Shown: in pieces, positions 2,889 through 61,428 of the stretch
Layout of the letters: each line of letters starts with the position of its first letter
How positions within the stretch are numbered: the first letter of the stretch is position 1
Assembly: GCF_000814475.1 (NCBI RefSeq)
Contig: NZ_JSVC01000013.1
Location: 62,001 to 126,000, forward strand
Direction: 5' to 3'
Length of the DNA: 64,000 nt
DNA from: Flavihumibacter solisilvae
GTDB lineage: Bacteria; Bacteroidota; Bacteroidia; Chitinophagales; Chitinophagaceae
The notes under the pieces: generated by a model
Seen by the model: only the letters and a program-made list of their open reading frames with translations
Told to the model about the DNA's origin: nothing
Database searches by the model: none
Program-made: the position numbers and the translations under genes

Positions 2889-3263
2889 TATTTAATTACT
2901 TGAATTACATCGACTTGTCTCGGTAAAGGGCGTACGATGGAGCAAGGAAAAAACGCGCAAAGTTGCGTGCTGCTCCTTGGAAACTGGTGAACTGGTAAAT
3001 TGGACTTTTCTGCCGCCAGGTAAGCTTGGCGCGGGGAACGTTAACAATGGGAAGGGATAGAATCGATTGTTAAAATTACTTGAAAGCGTCGAAAAAAAAA
3101 GTATTGAACAAAATTTTAATGTCCTAAATGGGGAGGCACAGGATTTGAATACCAAATTAGTAATGGAATTTTAACATAAAGAAATTCTAAATATTAAATC
3201 ATTAAAAATAATGAATAGATGTAAAATATTATATTTCAAGTGATTATAAGGCTTTTTTTGCGA
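2889..3263. other. Intergenic stretch with a hairpin and a short tandem repeat
   Basis: No convincing gene lies here; a minus-strand open frame at 2892-3155 has no signal or motif and is taken as chance. The sequence holds a possible stem at 2939-2976 (GGAGCA paired with TGCTCC, enclosing CGCGCAA-AG-TTGCGTG), two tandem AACTGGT units (2982-2996), and an AT-rich run from about 3070 onwards. It separates two divergent secreted-protein genes. Confidence 0.4.
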
Positions 3264-18990: not shown

Positions 18991-19355
18991 TTGTCGTTCA
19001 GACACAAATGCAAGTGATCGTTCACGCACTTTTCACTAGTGTTTGTATAGTCATGGCACTAAGGTTTCACTACTCGCGGACTAGTGTTTGTCTAGTGTTT
19101 TACGCTTTGGGGACGTACTTTTGGAGTTTCATCATAGCTTCTTCTTAGCTTTATGAAAGCTTCTACCTCTAGTCGGCCCCTGGTTAAGTGTAATTCGTGC
19201 CAGGTTTTAACCTGATTCTTGTCGTTCACGCGCTTGTTACGCGTAAATGCCTACCGTTCATGCACAAGCGCCTCGGTAAAATGGCGGAATTTAACCACTA
19301 TAGCATTTAATTCTTGTCGTTCATGCACACTGTGTTTGTCGTTCGTGAACTTTTC
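18991..19355. repeat. Dispersed TGTCGTTCAYGCAC repeats (six copies) with CTAGTGTTTGT units, tract A
   Basis: The intergenic gap 18943-19498 has no gene. Copies of a 13-15 base unit, TTGTCGTTCAYGCAC, sit at 18992-19000 (partial), 19015-19033 (followed by TTTT), 19219-19233, 19253-19265, 19314-19328 and 19336-19354 (TTCGTGAAC variant, followed by TTTT). A second unit, ACTAGTGTTTGT, occurs at 19035-19046 and 19080-19091, with a partial copy at 19092-19100. AGCTT units lie at 19136-19163, including TGAAAGCTTC. The same main unit occurs at 61135-61175. Confidence 0.8.
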
Positions 19356-19415
19356 TCCGGGAGTGTCCGGGGATCCTCCGATGTTCCTCCGGGGATTGTC
19401 CGAAAAGTCTCCGGG
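19356..19415. repeat. TCCGG micro-repeat cluster, tract A
   Basis: Six TCCG(G) units occur within 60 bases (19356, 19366, 19377, 19388, 19399, 19410), with short differing spacers. They follow directly on the TGTCGTTCAYGCAC copies and precede the 3' end of the AraC gene. Two GGTAATTG units follow at about 19424-19441. A comparable AATCCG cluster stands at the matching place in tract B (61381-61428). Confidence 0.65.
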
Positions 19416-19498
19416 AAAAGCAGGGTAATTGCAGGTAATTGTATCGGGTATTCTCCGTTGTAGACGGTTCCTTCCCGGCTTGTAGCCGGCTACCAGGA

Positions 19499-20389
19499 CT
19501 ATTGTTTCTTCTTCTCCCGGTAAATATTAGGTGACATTCCCATCAGCTTCGTGAACATCCGGGAAAAATAATAGGGGTCGTTGATACCGAGCTTGTATGA
19601 TATTTCCTTTACCCGAAGGTCAGTGAACATCAGGTACTGGCAGGCTTTCTGCACTTTAAGGTGATTATAATATTCGATAGGTGAGTAGCCGGTCTTCTTT
19701 TTGAACAACGCAGTGAAATGTGAAACGGACAGGTTTACCGATTGGGCGATTTCTTCAACTGTCAGTAACTGATCTGTGTGTTTGGTCATGAATTCAATCG
19801 ATGACCCGATAATGTTGTTTTTTTTTGTTGTCTCAGTTGGACTCTCCCTTGCAAGAAATGAAGCCAGGTAAGATCCGAAACTGGTGTTGGCAAACCATAA
19901 ATTCTCAGTGCCATATCCCTTTTCAAGATGCGAATAAATGTTGTTGAACATCCTTGTGCGTTCGTCAGTATAATGGACAAAACTTTTATTGCCGTTTAAC
20001 TGGTCCAGGAACAGTTCCACGATCTCATCTGACGTTATGCCCTTGAAATGTACCCAGTAGATCGTCCATGGATCAGTCTCATCCGCTGAATAGATATGTT
20101 CGCACGACGCCGGGACAATGAAAAAATCGCCCGGACGGATATCATATTCTTTTTTGCAGATTCGGGCCCAGCCCTTTCCTTCCACACAATAGATAAGAAT
20201 ATGCTGATCTGCCCCATTAGGCCTTTCCCGGTAATGGAATTTCGCCTTGGGATAGTAGCCGATATCGGTGATGAACAATGAGCTCAGCAATTTGCTGCCT
20301 GCTTCTTTTTGCACGAGGATTTTCCGCGGAATCACAATTGCCTTCTGCCCGTGGAATCCTTCCTTCTTGCGCAGTTTTCCTGACGTCAT
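19499..20389 (-). CDS. AraC-family regulator, probable activator of the polysaccharide utilization locus
   Basis: A 296-residue protein with an N-terminal cupin sensor of the AraC-binding type (about 45-170: FHYRERPNGADQHILIYCVE, then IRPGDFFIVPASCEH) and a C-terminal double helix-turn-helix (about 195-293: LTVEEIAQSVNLSVSHFTAL, KEISYKLGINDPYYFSRMF, the closing P-N-YREKK). It likely binds a sugar released from the glycan and activates transcription. It is divergent from susC with 142 bases between, where its operator probably lies. Unlike many Bacteroides loci there is no hybrid two-component sensor or ECF/anti-sigma pair nearby. Confidence 0.9.
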   Translation of the reverse strand: MTSGKLRKKEGFHGQKAIVIPRKILVQKEAGSKLLSSLFITDIGYYPKAKFHYRERPNGADQHILIYCVEGKGWARICKKEYDIRPGDFFIVPASCEHIYSADETDPWTIYWVHFKGITSDEIVELFLDQLNGNKSFVHYTDERTRMFNNIYSHLEKGYGTENLWFANTSFGSYLASFLARESPTETTKKNNIIGSSIEFMTKHTDQLLTVEEIAQSVNLSVSHFTALFKKKTGYSPIEYYNHLKVQKACQYLMFTDLRVKEISYKLGINDPYYFSRMFTKLMGMSPNIYREKKKQ

Positions 20390-59752: not shown

Positions 59753-60334
59753 CTACAGGCTGTCTTCGGCCTGTGATACATATTCCGGTGCATTGTCGAT
59801 CTCCTGGCGCAGCAGGAGGTTTAGTTGGGCCGAATGGTGCTGGACATGCCTCAAATTATAAAACAGGATATCCAGGACAGAATAGCTCATTGCTGCCTGG
59901 CTGCATAAAGCCAGATCAAGATGTTTCGATTGGCCGATCCACCGCTCCTGGAGTTTGTCTTCCGTAAGCCCGGCAATAACGCTGTGGCATTTCTCCCGGC
60001 AGAAATGAGTATAGGTTAGTAATTCTTCTTTCGAATAAATGCGGTCGGGCACAACGTCATCGATCGCGTCTTCAGGGATCTCCGCCTGATCCGTTAAGGT
60101 GAAGGGAAGAGTGGATTTGAAATTTTCGGGTGGTATGGTCAGGTAGTAATCCAGGAAGACCAGGGTGTGATAGGCAATGTAGAAGAACTTCTTTTTGGTA
60201 TCCCAAAGTTCTGTGGGCCAGAGTTCAATGGCGTTATTCAGCATATCGATGCTTCCACCGAAGCTTTTCCAGAGGCTGCATTTCAGGTTGGTAAGTGCAT
60301 CCATGGTACAAGGTTTATTTACTACTTCAGGCAT
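59753..60334 (-). CDS. DinB-like four-helix metal-binding protein
   Basis: A 193-residue cytoplasmic protein of the DinB/YfiT fold. The His residues that bind metal in this fold are seen in YIAYHTLVFLDYYL (about residue 57) and in LRHVQHHSAQLNLLLR (about 163-168). The N-terminal helix reads SFGGSIDMLNNAIELWPTEL. Such proteins include thiol transferases, but the activity here is unknown. The start at 60334 overlaps the upstream metallo-hydrolase stop by 8 bases, which fits translational coupling; a start at 60304 (MDALTNLK) is also possible. Confidence 0.8.
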   Translation of the reverse strand: MPEVVNKPCTMDALTNLKCSLWKSFGGSIDMLNNAIELWPTELWDTKKKFFYIAYHTLVFLDYYLTIPPENFKSTLPFTLTDQAEIPEDAIDDVVPDRIYSKEELLTYTHFCREKCHSVIAGLTEDKLQERWIGQSKHLDLALCSQAAMSYSVLDILFYNLRHVQHHSAQLNLLLRQEIDNAPEYVSQAEDSL

Positions 60335-61064
60335 GAACCAGCTTTTCTCCCCACACCTGTTTCATCACATCATCAAGGTCGGTAAGTACTTTCGAGCAAT
60401 CGCCGAAATATGATGAGCCGTGCATAGTAGCCAAAGTTTTCGGTTGCAGCGCTGCCAGTTCGGCGAGAAGTTTCGGGGTGTTATGGTTGTATGGCGTATA
60501 ATCCATCAGCGGCCCCGATTCAAAGTACAGTAAAGAAGACCTGTGCGATTCCAGGATATCCTTGTCTGTTATGGCACAACACTCACCGTTCTGGTGAAGG
60601 AGGTCGGAGCAAAGCAGGGTCTTGTCAGTTTCTTCAAACATAACCCCCGCATCCCAGCCGTGGGGAAGGTGAGGGGTGCGGATGAAGCGGTACCTGCGCT
60701 TGCCGGTTTCAAGGATGTCGCCACTTTTCATGGCGAGCGCAGGCCTGGCAGAAAAATCACTCATGTTAACAATAGCACCCACTTCGCTGCAGACCGGCTG
60801 CGCGTTCGGTGCAATGTTGAGCCAGTCGTTCAGGGCGCCACATTCATCCACTTCAAAGTGACTGAAACCAATCCATCGTATTGAGGCGGGGTCTATGAGC
60901 GTTTTTACTGCTTCGTGCACAACGGGAAACATCATTTTCATTCCTGCGTGGTAGAGGAGGGGCTCATCGTCCCTGACAAGAAAATGATTGAATTGAAGTT
61001 GTATGTCCGGAACAAAAACGCTGATTCGAAAAACATCCGGCGCAATTTCATGGATCTGATACAT
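60327..61064 (-). CDS. Metallo-beta-lactamase-fold protein of the flavodiiron/ODP type, without flavodoxin domain
   Basis: A 245-residue protein starting MYQIHEIAPDVFRISVF (61064); the longer frame to 61148 runs into the repeat tract. Di-iron ligands of the oxygen-binding diiron protein branch are visible: His69-x-Glu71-x-Asp73 in GFSHFEVDECGAL, His132 or His135 in TPHLPHGWDAG, Asp153 in LLCSDLLHQNG and His215 in LATMHGSSYF. The next position, often His, is Glu74. The fused flavodoxin of classical flavodiiron proteins is absent. It may sense or reduce O2 or NO (inference). It is coupled to the DinB gene by an 8-base overlap. Confidence 0.82.
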   Translation of the reverse strand: MYQIHEIAPDVFRISVFVPDIQLQFNHFLVRDDEPLLYHAGMKMMFPVVHEAVKTLIDPASIRWIGFSHFEVDECGALNDWLNIAPNAQPVCSEVGAIVNMSDFSARPALAMKSGDILETGKRRYRFIRTPHLPHGWDAGVMFEETDKTLLCSDLLHQNGECCAITDKDILESHRSSLLYFESGPLMDYTPYNHNTPKLLAELAALQPKTLATMHGSSYFGDCSKVLTDLDDVMKQVWGEKLVHA

Positions 61065-61134: not shown

Positions 61135-61175
61135 TGTCGTTCATGCATCCCTGTACCTGTCGTTCATGCACTTTT
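61135..61175. repeat. TGTCGTTCATGCAC repeats (two copies), tract B
   Basis: Two copies at 61135-61147 and 61158-61175 (the second followed by TTTT), separated by 10 bases. They are the same unit as the six copies in tract A at 18.99-19.35 kb, on the same strand. The gap 61065-61441 has no gene; an open frame at 61076-61357 only translates the repeats. Confidence 0.8.
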
Positions 61176-61187
61176 GTAGCTTCCGGC

Positions 61188-61270
61188 ATGCTTCCAGGAT
61201 GCTTCTTTATAGCTTCAAACATGCTTCAAACATGCTTCCTGCATGCTTTCCGGATGCTTTTTTTATGCTT
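61188..61270. repeat. ATGCTTC micro-repeat cluster, tract B
   Basis: Seven ATGCTT(C/T) units occur in 83 bases (61188, 61199, 61221, 61232, 61243, 61254, 61265), five of the six gaps being 11 bases or close to it, plus AGCTTC at 61211. From 61188 to 61270 the spacing is near one helical turn: 11, 22 (AGCTTC halfway), 11, 11, 11, 11. TGAAAGCTTC follows at 61306-61315, a 10-mer also present in tract A at 19154-19163. Confidence 0.8.
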
Positions 61271-61380
61271 GTTTTATTCTTCTGGACGGCTCTTTCAAGG
61301 CATTGTGAAAGCTTCCGCAGGTTTCCGGCCAGGACATTAATAATAGGCAGCATTTAAATAAAATCCAAGCACTATTTCAT

Positions 61381-61428
61381 AATCCGACTAAAATCCGGAA
61401 TAATCCGACAAAAAAGCGGAATAATCCG
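61381..61428. repeat. AATCCG micro-repeat cluster, tract B
   Basis: Four AATCCG units at 61382, 61392, 61402 and 61423 (approximate by one base), mostly 10 bases apart, with a GCGGAATAATCCG inverted half. They stand just before the 3' end of the minus-strand amidase gene, as the TCCGG cluster of tract A stands before the AraC gene. Confidence 0.65.

Follow-up and report, generated by a model that had tools for sequence, protein, structure and literature searches.

Dispersed intergenic elements of a doubled motif and an 11-bp repeat array in Flavihumibacter solisilvae: putative relatives of LytTR/P190 control regions

In this study we show that two intergenic tracts of Flavihumibacter solisilvae, here called A and B, belong to a family of about 20 intergenic copies in the same genome. 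In each tract a pair of motifs TGTCGTTCAYGCAC is followed by an array of 11-bp units, and the family comprises several subtypes with different units. From comparison of sequences and gene neighbourhoods it might be possible that the doublet serves as an operator of LytTR type and that the array forms a track for the regulator, so that tracts A and B would be dispersed control regions of LytTR/P190 cassettes that stand without those genes. We give this reading about an even chance of being right.

Motif doublets and the two tracts

The window, by which we mean the whole stretch of 64,000 nucleotides analysed here (C5:62001-126000), is part of a 5.41-Mb draft genome in 75 contigs, which was the genome searched. 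At up to two mismatches it holds eight copies of TGTCGTTCAYGCAC, all on the plus strand, six in tract A and two in tract B, exactly as a first-pass annotation had counted them; two of the copies are exact, two have one mismatch and four have two. Dinucleotide shuffling of the window (100 shuffles) gave a mean of 0.60 copies and a maximum of 3, with none reaching 8. The same annotation had proposed to check whether the motif exceeds expectation, and it does so in the whole genome too, with eight exact copies against none for the reversed control. At up to two mismatches the genome gave 85 matches against 62 for the reversed control, so single two-mismatch sites are mostly chance, and the enrichment resides in the exact copies and in their pairing. 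In a scan of fetched loci the copies were paired 22-24 bp apart, mostly 23; from the 20 loci fetched we dropped L043 and L047-L050, which are lone sites without an array, and L045, which has a different array. A direct-repeat period of 22-24 bp corresponds to the long end of the 20-23-bp range of LytTR operators. By eye, ACCGTTCAT, which lies within TACCGTTCATGCAC, agrees exactly with the LytTR site consensus, [TA][AC][CA]GTTN[AG][TG], and of TGTCGTTCAT the second half alone agrees with it.

The features of both tracts are collected in Table 1. Tract A turned out to be two elements of unlike subtype with a motif pair of wider spacing between them. The leftward gene starts 49 bp away from the first doublet of this tract, its second array ends 5 bp short of the stop end of an AraC-family gene (19499-20389), and a short palindrome occupies 19479-19496. 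In tract B inverted repeats were sought and none was found. In the ORF listing 61148, a position within the doublet, is given as the start of the ODP gene; 61064 is an in-frame ATG further in, and if this is the start the doublet lies 70 bp from the divergent gene. Repeats resembling the AATAATCCG module of tract B were also found upstream of standalone LytTR genes in two congeners (G009 and G012).

The first-pass annotation had described an ordered set of short repeats common to the two tracts. GCTT-type and TCCG-type units are indeed present in the claimed order in both, and the layout of a doublet followed by an array is not only shared but recurs genome-wide. The supposed likeness of the TCCG parts did not survive: in tract A the GCTT units are those of the first element and the TCCG units are the 11-bp units of the second, whereas in tract B the TCCG part is the 21-bp direct repeat. 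Since these parts are unlike, the shared order is partly coincidental. The units had also been taken for loose motifs; they exist, but what follows every doublet is 11-bp periodic DNA.

Table 1. Positions in the window of the repeat features of tracts A and B and of the genes that might be controlled by them
Feature	Position	Strand	Description	Lag-11 identity
Doublet A1	18992..19029	+	Two motif copies (18992, 19016), 24 bp apart; putative LytTR-type operator	
Array A1	19030..19172	+	Subtype II (CACTAGT / AGCTTCTTC units), 143 bp of 11-bp units	0.455
Extra motif pair	19220..19265	+	Copies at 19220 and 19252, 32 bp apart; the second is TACCGTTCATGCAC	
Doublet A2	19315..19350	+	Motif copies (19315, 19337) 22 bp apart	
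Array A2	19351..19493	+	Subtype III (CTCCGGG units), 143 bp of 11-bp units	0.455
Orphan protein gene, 116 aa	18592..18942	-	Candidate regulated gene of tract A	
Doublet B	61135..61171	+	Motif copies (61135, 61158) 23 bp apart	
Array B	61172..61314	+	Subtype I (NNNNNATGCTT units), 143 bp of 11-bp units	0.614
21-bp direct repeat	61379..61428	+	AATAATCCG; possible second LytTR-type operator	
ODP-family metallo-hydrolase gene	60327..61064	-	Start 61064 or 61148; candidate regulated gene of tract B	

The 11-bp arrays and their subtypes

In each of the arrays A1, A2 and B, 11 is the best of all lags from 5 to 33. We extended the comparison to the 143 bp after the second motif copy in 17 elements, 15 from the own genome and two from the congener G012, leaving out L037a, whose array stops after about three units, and L042 with its odd spacing. 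Pooled identity at lag 11 was 0.514 against a median of 0.265 over lags, with further peaks at lags 22, 33, 44 and 55. The lag-11 identity of every one of the 17 was reached by 0 of 1000 letter shuffles; the best lag was 11 in 14 elements and 22 or 33 in the other three. Four of five further elements, from outside the building of the doublet model, show the same behaviour, the exception being L183 (133 of 1000 shuffles reach its identity), which looks truncated. By eye the arrays usually contain 12-13 units, and this includes both G012 copies. Taken together, the intergenic DNA within 464 kb of the own genome has no 11-bp excess (z 1.1 at lag 11), hence the period is a property of the elements. 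As a separate observation, the congener G014 (L055, stretches L084-L091) has intergenic runs that are purine/pyrimidine-skewed, and a large number of stretches with 7- and 14-bp periodicity.

Besides subtypes I to III, found in tract B and in the first and second half of tract A respectively, there is a subtype IV with TTTTCTCGTGC units, and L184 and L037 carry still other units. Adjacent units inside one array resemble each other. Among four copies of type I, pairwise differences amount to 17-32 of 143 bases (12-22% divergence), and all six pairs are free of gaps. The six type II pairs align with 0, 2, 2, 8, 24 and 24 gap columns, the highest values being those of pairs with array A1; the type III pair has 4, type IV 2 and the G012 pair none. 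In type I, variable columns are rarer at unit positions 8-11 (5 of 52) than in the rest of the unit (38 of 91; Fisher p 5e-5); a chi-square test across all 11 unit positions gives p 0.06. Pooled over 15 elements, positions 1-4 and 11 of the unit are T-rich (48-55%). Coding by 33-bp repeats was considered and is unsupported in type I, where position modulo 3 gives no codon-phase signal (p 0.85). In CRISPR arrays unique spacers separate near-identical repeats of about 23-50 bp; the elements consist of degenerate 11-bp units and do not qualify as CRISPR arrays.

Distribution in the genome and in relatives

A profile of the doublet (14 sequences, without structure) found at least 19 places in the own genome at E < 0.02, of which 14 are the training set; these come from the best 150 of 1,648 first-look candidates, so weak copies were possibly missed. 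One more place, on C17, has an E value of 0.11 and does carry an array. The same-genus relatives are distant (DapB identity 73-79%). In the congener G012 the profile gave two strong places (E 5e-6 and 4e-4), and its match in G011 (E 0.0017) looks coding. Exact TGTCGTTCAYGCAC was found in none of the 58 relatives, all 58 of which were searched; since the profile revealed two G012 elements with this layout, a genome without the exact motif may still have the element. A lineage-specific repeat family, one of the possibilities raised in the first-pass annotation, agrees well with these results: about 20 dispersed copies, an exact motif missing from 58 relatives and one congener with two elements. 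That annotation had named a motif without excess and relatives without the arrangement as grounds for giving up its view; an excess was found, and so was the arrangement in a congener.

In a collection of genome contigs, from which the own genome or its near kin may be absent, a doublet scan gave 36 loci. The 14 of them that were inspected were all rejected, 13 being Bacteroidaceae/Bacteroidales loci with an unrelated 22-bp GTTCGCGAA repeat and one a 12-bp tandem repeat. The former constitute a dispersed 22-bp repeat family in its own right, present in many copies, with the core GTTCGCGAA and the flanks TTTGC(C/T)G...CGGCAAAT, and unrelated to the elements (L132, L137-L139, L141, L143, L146, L150, L158, L159, L162, L165 and L167). 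Viral contigs gave no matches to two patterns, and plasmids gave no DNA match to tract A or to a G012 element.

The nearest 5' ORF of 24 elements is divergent in 13 cases, codirectional in 10 and absent in one; among the 13 divergent calls L034 and L042 (codirectional gene missed) and L035 (a tRNA) are misleading. At tract A, L038 and L184 a divergent gene starts 49-99 bp away from the doublet. Four elements (L033, L037b, L044 and L186) begin 7-36 bp past a codirectional stop, and L035 and L040 are near tRNA genes. Copies after gene ends or in convergent gaps can hardly be promoters. Inspection by eye of the printed strands between doublet and gene start revealed no convincing promoter boxes.

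In the own genome the 329 bp between tlpA and rrf2 contain a type I element. The two genes are also adjacent in nine relatives. In seven of these they overlap or are separated by at most about 25 bp; of the others, G007 has an ORF in a gap of about 280 bp and G009 a different insert. The G009 insert (L171:889-1078) is 190 bp long and contains GTTTAG/CTAAAC-type repeats in opposite orientations. At a second locus 500 bp with a type I element separate a histidine kinase gene from an amidohydrolase gene; in the three relatives where these genes are also neighbours, the distances are 0, 3 and 33 bp. As the genes abut closely in most relatives at these two loci, the element copies there are inserted DNA. 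The neighbours of tracts A and B are not conserved, the CBAH gene having been found in the own genome only and the AraC gene once elsewhere (44%).

Standalone LytTR genes and the P190 family

We examined 200 bp upstream of 26 standalone LytTR genes (no more than 150 aa) and 262 upstream control regions for a 20-23-bp direct repeat. At 11 or more of 12 identical bases such a repeat was present at 13 of 26 LytTR genes and 2 of 262 controls (p 9e-14, a value that overstates the case because several LytTR rows share one repeat by descent as orthologues or paralogues). At 10 or more of 12 bases the counts were 17 of 26 and 20 of 262, and among seven longer LytTR genes none reached 10 of 12. Two of the 13 matches (L061, L272) are units of 11-bp arrays, which leaves 11 of 26; six rows (L053 twice, L061, L105, L112 and L123) stem from repeat-search loci, and without them 11 of 20 reach 11 bases or more. 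A doubled TGTCGTTCAYGCAC-type motif precedes two of the 26 genes, both in the congener G001, and none of the 262 controls. The remaining LytTR genes carry unrelated repeats, so no LytTR protein is tied to TGTCGTTCAYGCAC by specificity. Upstream of a LytTR gene of G001 there are three TGTYGTTCAC copies 21 bp apart; the doublet period is mostly 23 in solo elements versus 21 at LytTR genes. In the own genome elements adjoin LytTR genes on C30 and C35.

One element, L184, sits 99 bp upstream of the gene for a 134-aa LytTR-only protein (PF04397, E 1e-15). Past this element, at about 2980-3080 of the same locus, several copies of a 22-bp repeat around TATCGTTTGTTGTGTCATTG were noted. The closest own-genome paralogue of this LytTR protein (on C35) adjoins element L038, and L038 lies between the LytTR gene and a gene for a 191-aa protein, which we call P190 (L038:2562-3137). 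P190 has no Pfam or NCBIfam match at a cut-off of 0.001; below the threshold there is one LSM match (E 0.09), and PHROGs gives no more than a weak match of unknown function. A profile search, with 83 matches of which some are partial, found P190 in 11 of 15 genomes of the genus, with nine copies in the own genome, and across the family in 10 of 117 genomes, two of them in the genus, a patchy distribution. With one query each it was not found in plasmids or phages.

Of 30 P190 loci fetched, 27 were examined, one of which had only 54 bp upstream, and the remaining 26, all from the genus, were tested; in two of these the profile match does not start at the start codon. In the 600 bp upstream lag 11 came out best 21 times and lag 22 or 33 three times (24 of 26), compared with lag 11 in 11 of 147 intergenic control regions, which are on average shorter than the P190 regions. 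Eight of the nine own-genome copies have such an array-type lag upstream (five of six among those tested later). Outside the genus lag 11 or 22 was best at 8 of 17 P190 loci from eight genomes, nine of the 17 loci coming from a single genome, and the link between array and P190 is weaker there. The units vary from gene to gene.

A LytTR match falls within the fetched flank at 16 of the 30 P190 loci and not at the other 14. In five LytTR/P190 cassettes read by eye 11-bp units lie between the two genes, most clearly in G001 with about 17 units; a stricter automatic cut on three G012 LytTR stretches found an array in one and none in two. By eye the cassettes on C35 and in G012 have the order putative operator 2 (21-bp repeats), LytTR, 11-bp array, putative operator 1 (23-bp doublet), P190. 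Tract B, read on the minus strand, has operator 2, array, operator 1 and another gene in place of P190, LytTR being absent. The literature, in a non-exhaustive search, gave no description of dispersed 11-bp arrays or of a LytTR/P190 pairing.

Apart from these arrays we noted another dispersed family, whose 11-bp units lie in inverted arms (CCATGTATYAT ... ATACATGGTTA). Its copies are at L070:6146-6304, L187 around 2700, L272:2614-2802 and, in a congener, L206:11251-11417; the three own-genome copies are upstream of P190 genes.

Discussion

The earlier suggestion of a binding-site array is the one that we would carry forward, as a putative function to which the 11-bp phasing, the unit cores conserved in type I and the LytTR-linked repeats point. 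The TGTCGTTCAYGCAC doublet would then be an operator for standalone LytTR-domain regulators. Over about 143 bp the array would present one short core per helical turn, all on one face of the DNA, and regulator subunits, either LytTR or an unknown partner, might align side by side on this DNA or wrap it. A LytTR unit that touches consecutive major grooves could join the doublet as high-affinity site with the array as track. Occupancy of the array may act on a neighbouring promoter, and in this way tracts A and B might regulate their leftward genes. The minus-strand order of tract B, which is that of a cassette without LytTR, suggests that the solo copies descend from LytTR/P190 cassettes. A bolder version, which we regard as rather unlikely, would be that the cassettes are an undescribed system in which every cassette has an array of its own, read at one unit per helical turn by an oligomer of a specificity that co-varies with the array, and that control regions escaped from the cassettes, spread through the genome and wire unrelated genes to the cassette regulators.

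One could instead think of a non-autonomous mobile repeat, with the doublet as the end recognized by a transposase or recombinase, the array as subterminal sites and gene control as incidental. This is compatible with the operator-and-track reading, and on its own we consider it possible but somewhat improbable. About 20 scattered intergenic copies, many of them outside promoter position, would fit well, as would the insertions at two loci between convergent genes that abut in most relatives and the 5' edge of the elements, which appears sharp at TGTCG by eye. However, neither terminal inverted repeats nor a target-site duplication could be seen by eye in the printed copies, and the neighbour proteins scanned, a part of all neighbours, include no transposase. 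The identity of full-length type I copies to the BLAST query did not exceed about 80%, so no recent copies were seen. Mobility would also leave unexplained why P190 genes are marked throughout the genus by arrays with other units. Another proposal is a mutational by-product in which slippage made tandem 11-bp duplications that were scattered later. Neighbouring units of an array are alike, short tandem repeats exist in these genomes, and alignments of array A1 with other type II copies contain 8-24 gap columns, which means that units can be gained or lost. But the gapless type I pairs at 12-22% divergence, the 12-13 units counted by eye across subtypes and in the congener, and the positioning of arrays upstream of P190 genes speak against it. 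We find such an origin very improbable, and the slippage-driven spacer of the first-pass annotation is disfavoured by the type I pairs, with the A1 gaps counting the other way.

Two further proposals we consider improbable. With one core per 11 nt, the pyrimidine-rich strand could be a rut-like track for Rho-type termination, or an RNA protein-binding site, at gene ends. The T fraction of the element strand (0.35-0.44 in 15 of 17 elements) and the four elements that start just beyond a codirectional gene are as expected from this. The 5' neighbour is divergent, though, at several elements including L038, L046 and tracts A and B, so that the pyrimidine strand is not the transcript of that gene, and of 18 arrays upstream of P190 seven have a sense strand rich in purines (at least 0.6). 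Neither is there a consistent RNA fold across elements: for eight elements on both strands the fold z-scores ranged from -3.87 to +1.60, the lowest in type I. Rfam gave no match in the window and only four tRNAs in 16 element loci. The small RNA that the first-pass annotation had also envisaged loses its footing by the same results. Helically phased DNA, wrapped in a nucleoid- or gyrase-type manner without any sequence-specific regulator, could account for a length near 143 bp and for the one T-rich block per 11 bp common to the 15 pooled elements. Yet the period is 11 and not 10-10.5, the cores differ between arrays and are nevertheless conserved across type I copies, and the doublet and the LytTR/P190 link would have no explanation.

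If the operator-and-track reading holds, it would add a new layout of LytTR control, in which a paired operator is combined with a long helically phased array and an undescribed protein family. The many arrays with unlike cores and similar architecture would amount to a natural experiment on the reading of DNA by an oligomeric regulator. The dispersed solo copies might serve as a case of regulatory DNA spreading among genes.

Comparison with known systems

Repeats of the REP, ERIC and MITE type occur as many short noncoding intergenic copies. The elements resemble them in being dispersed between genes and in being present or absent relative to other genomes at two loci; they differ in that no common hairpin core or terminal inverted repeats were seen, in their 11-bp period and in the LytTR/P190 link. 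The parC centromere of plasmid R1 has tandem 11-bp direct repeats, or iterons, which are bound by an oligomer of ParR. The tandem 11-bp repeats are alike, whereas here we find about 20 chromosomal copies with differing units. BldC forms head-to-tail oligomers of variable length on tandem direct repeats (PMC5859096); it covers 9 bp per subunit and has a MerR-like fold, as against the 11-bp units described here.

Another parallel is RemA of Bacillus, a LytTR-related ring protein for which wrapping of 107-159 bp of upstream DNA has been proposed; its footprint shows periodic 7-bp protections 3 bp apart (PMC8481266). The periodic direct-repeat layout is common to RemA targets and to our elements; the RemA stretches of 7 bp are poorly conserved and have 3-bp gaps, unlike the 11-bp units. 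The LytTR domain of AgrA contacts two consecutive major grooves, according to the same paper (PMC8481266). LytTR systems are known to autoregulate via direct repeats, which in Bacteroides are 11-bp repeats 11 bp apart (PMC6193735). The portion of that paper at hand makes no mention of a long 11-bp array or of dispersed solo copies. In published systems the partner is a membrane protein, an inhibitory one in the LytTR Regulatory Systems (LRS), where here it is P190. What the elements share with the LytTR operators of AgrA, HdrR/BrsR, other LRS and the LRS-like systems of Bacteroides is the basic plan of a direct repeat in two copies, spaced at a period of roughly 21-23 bp.
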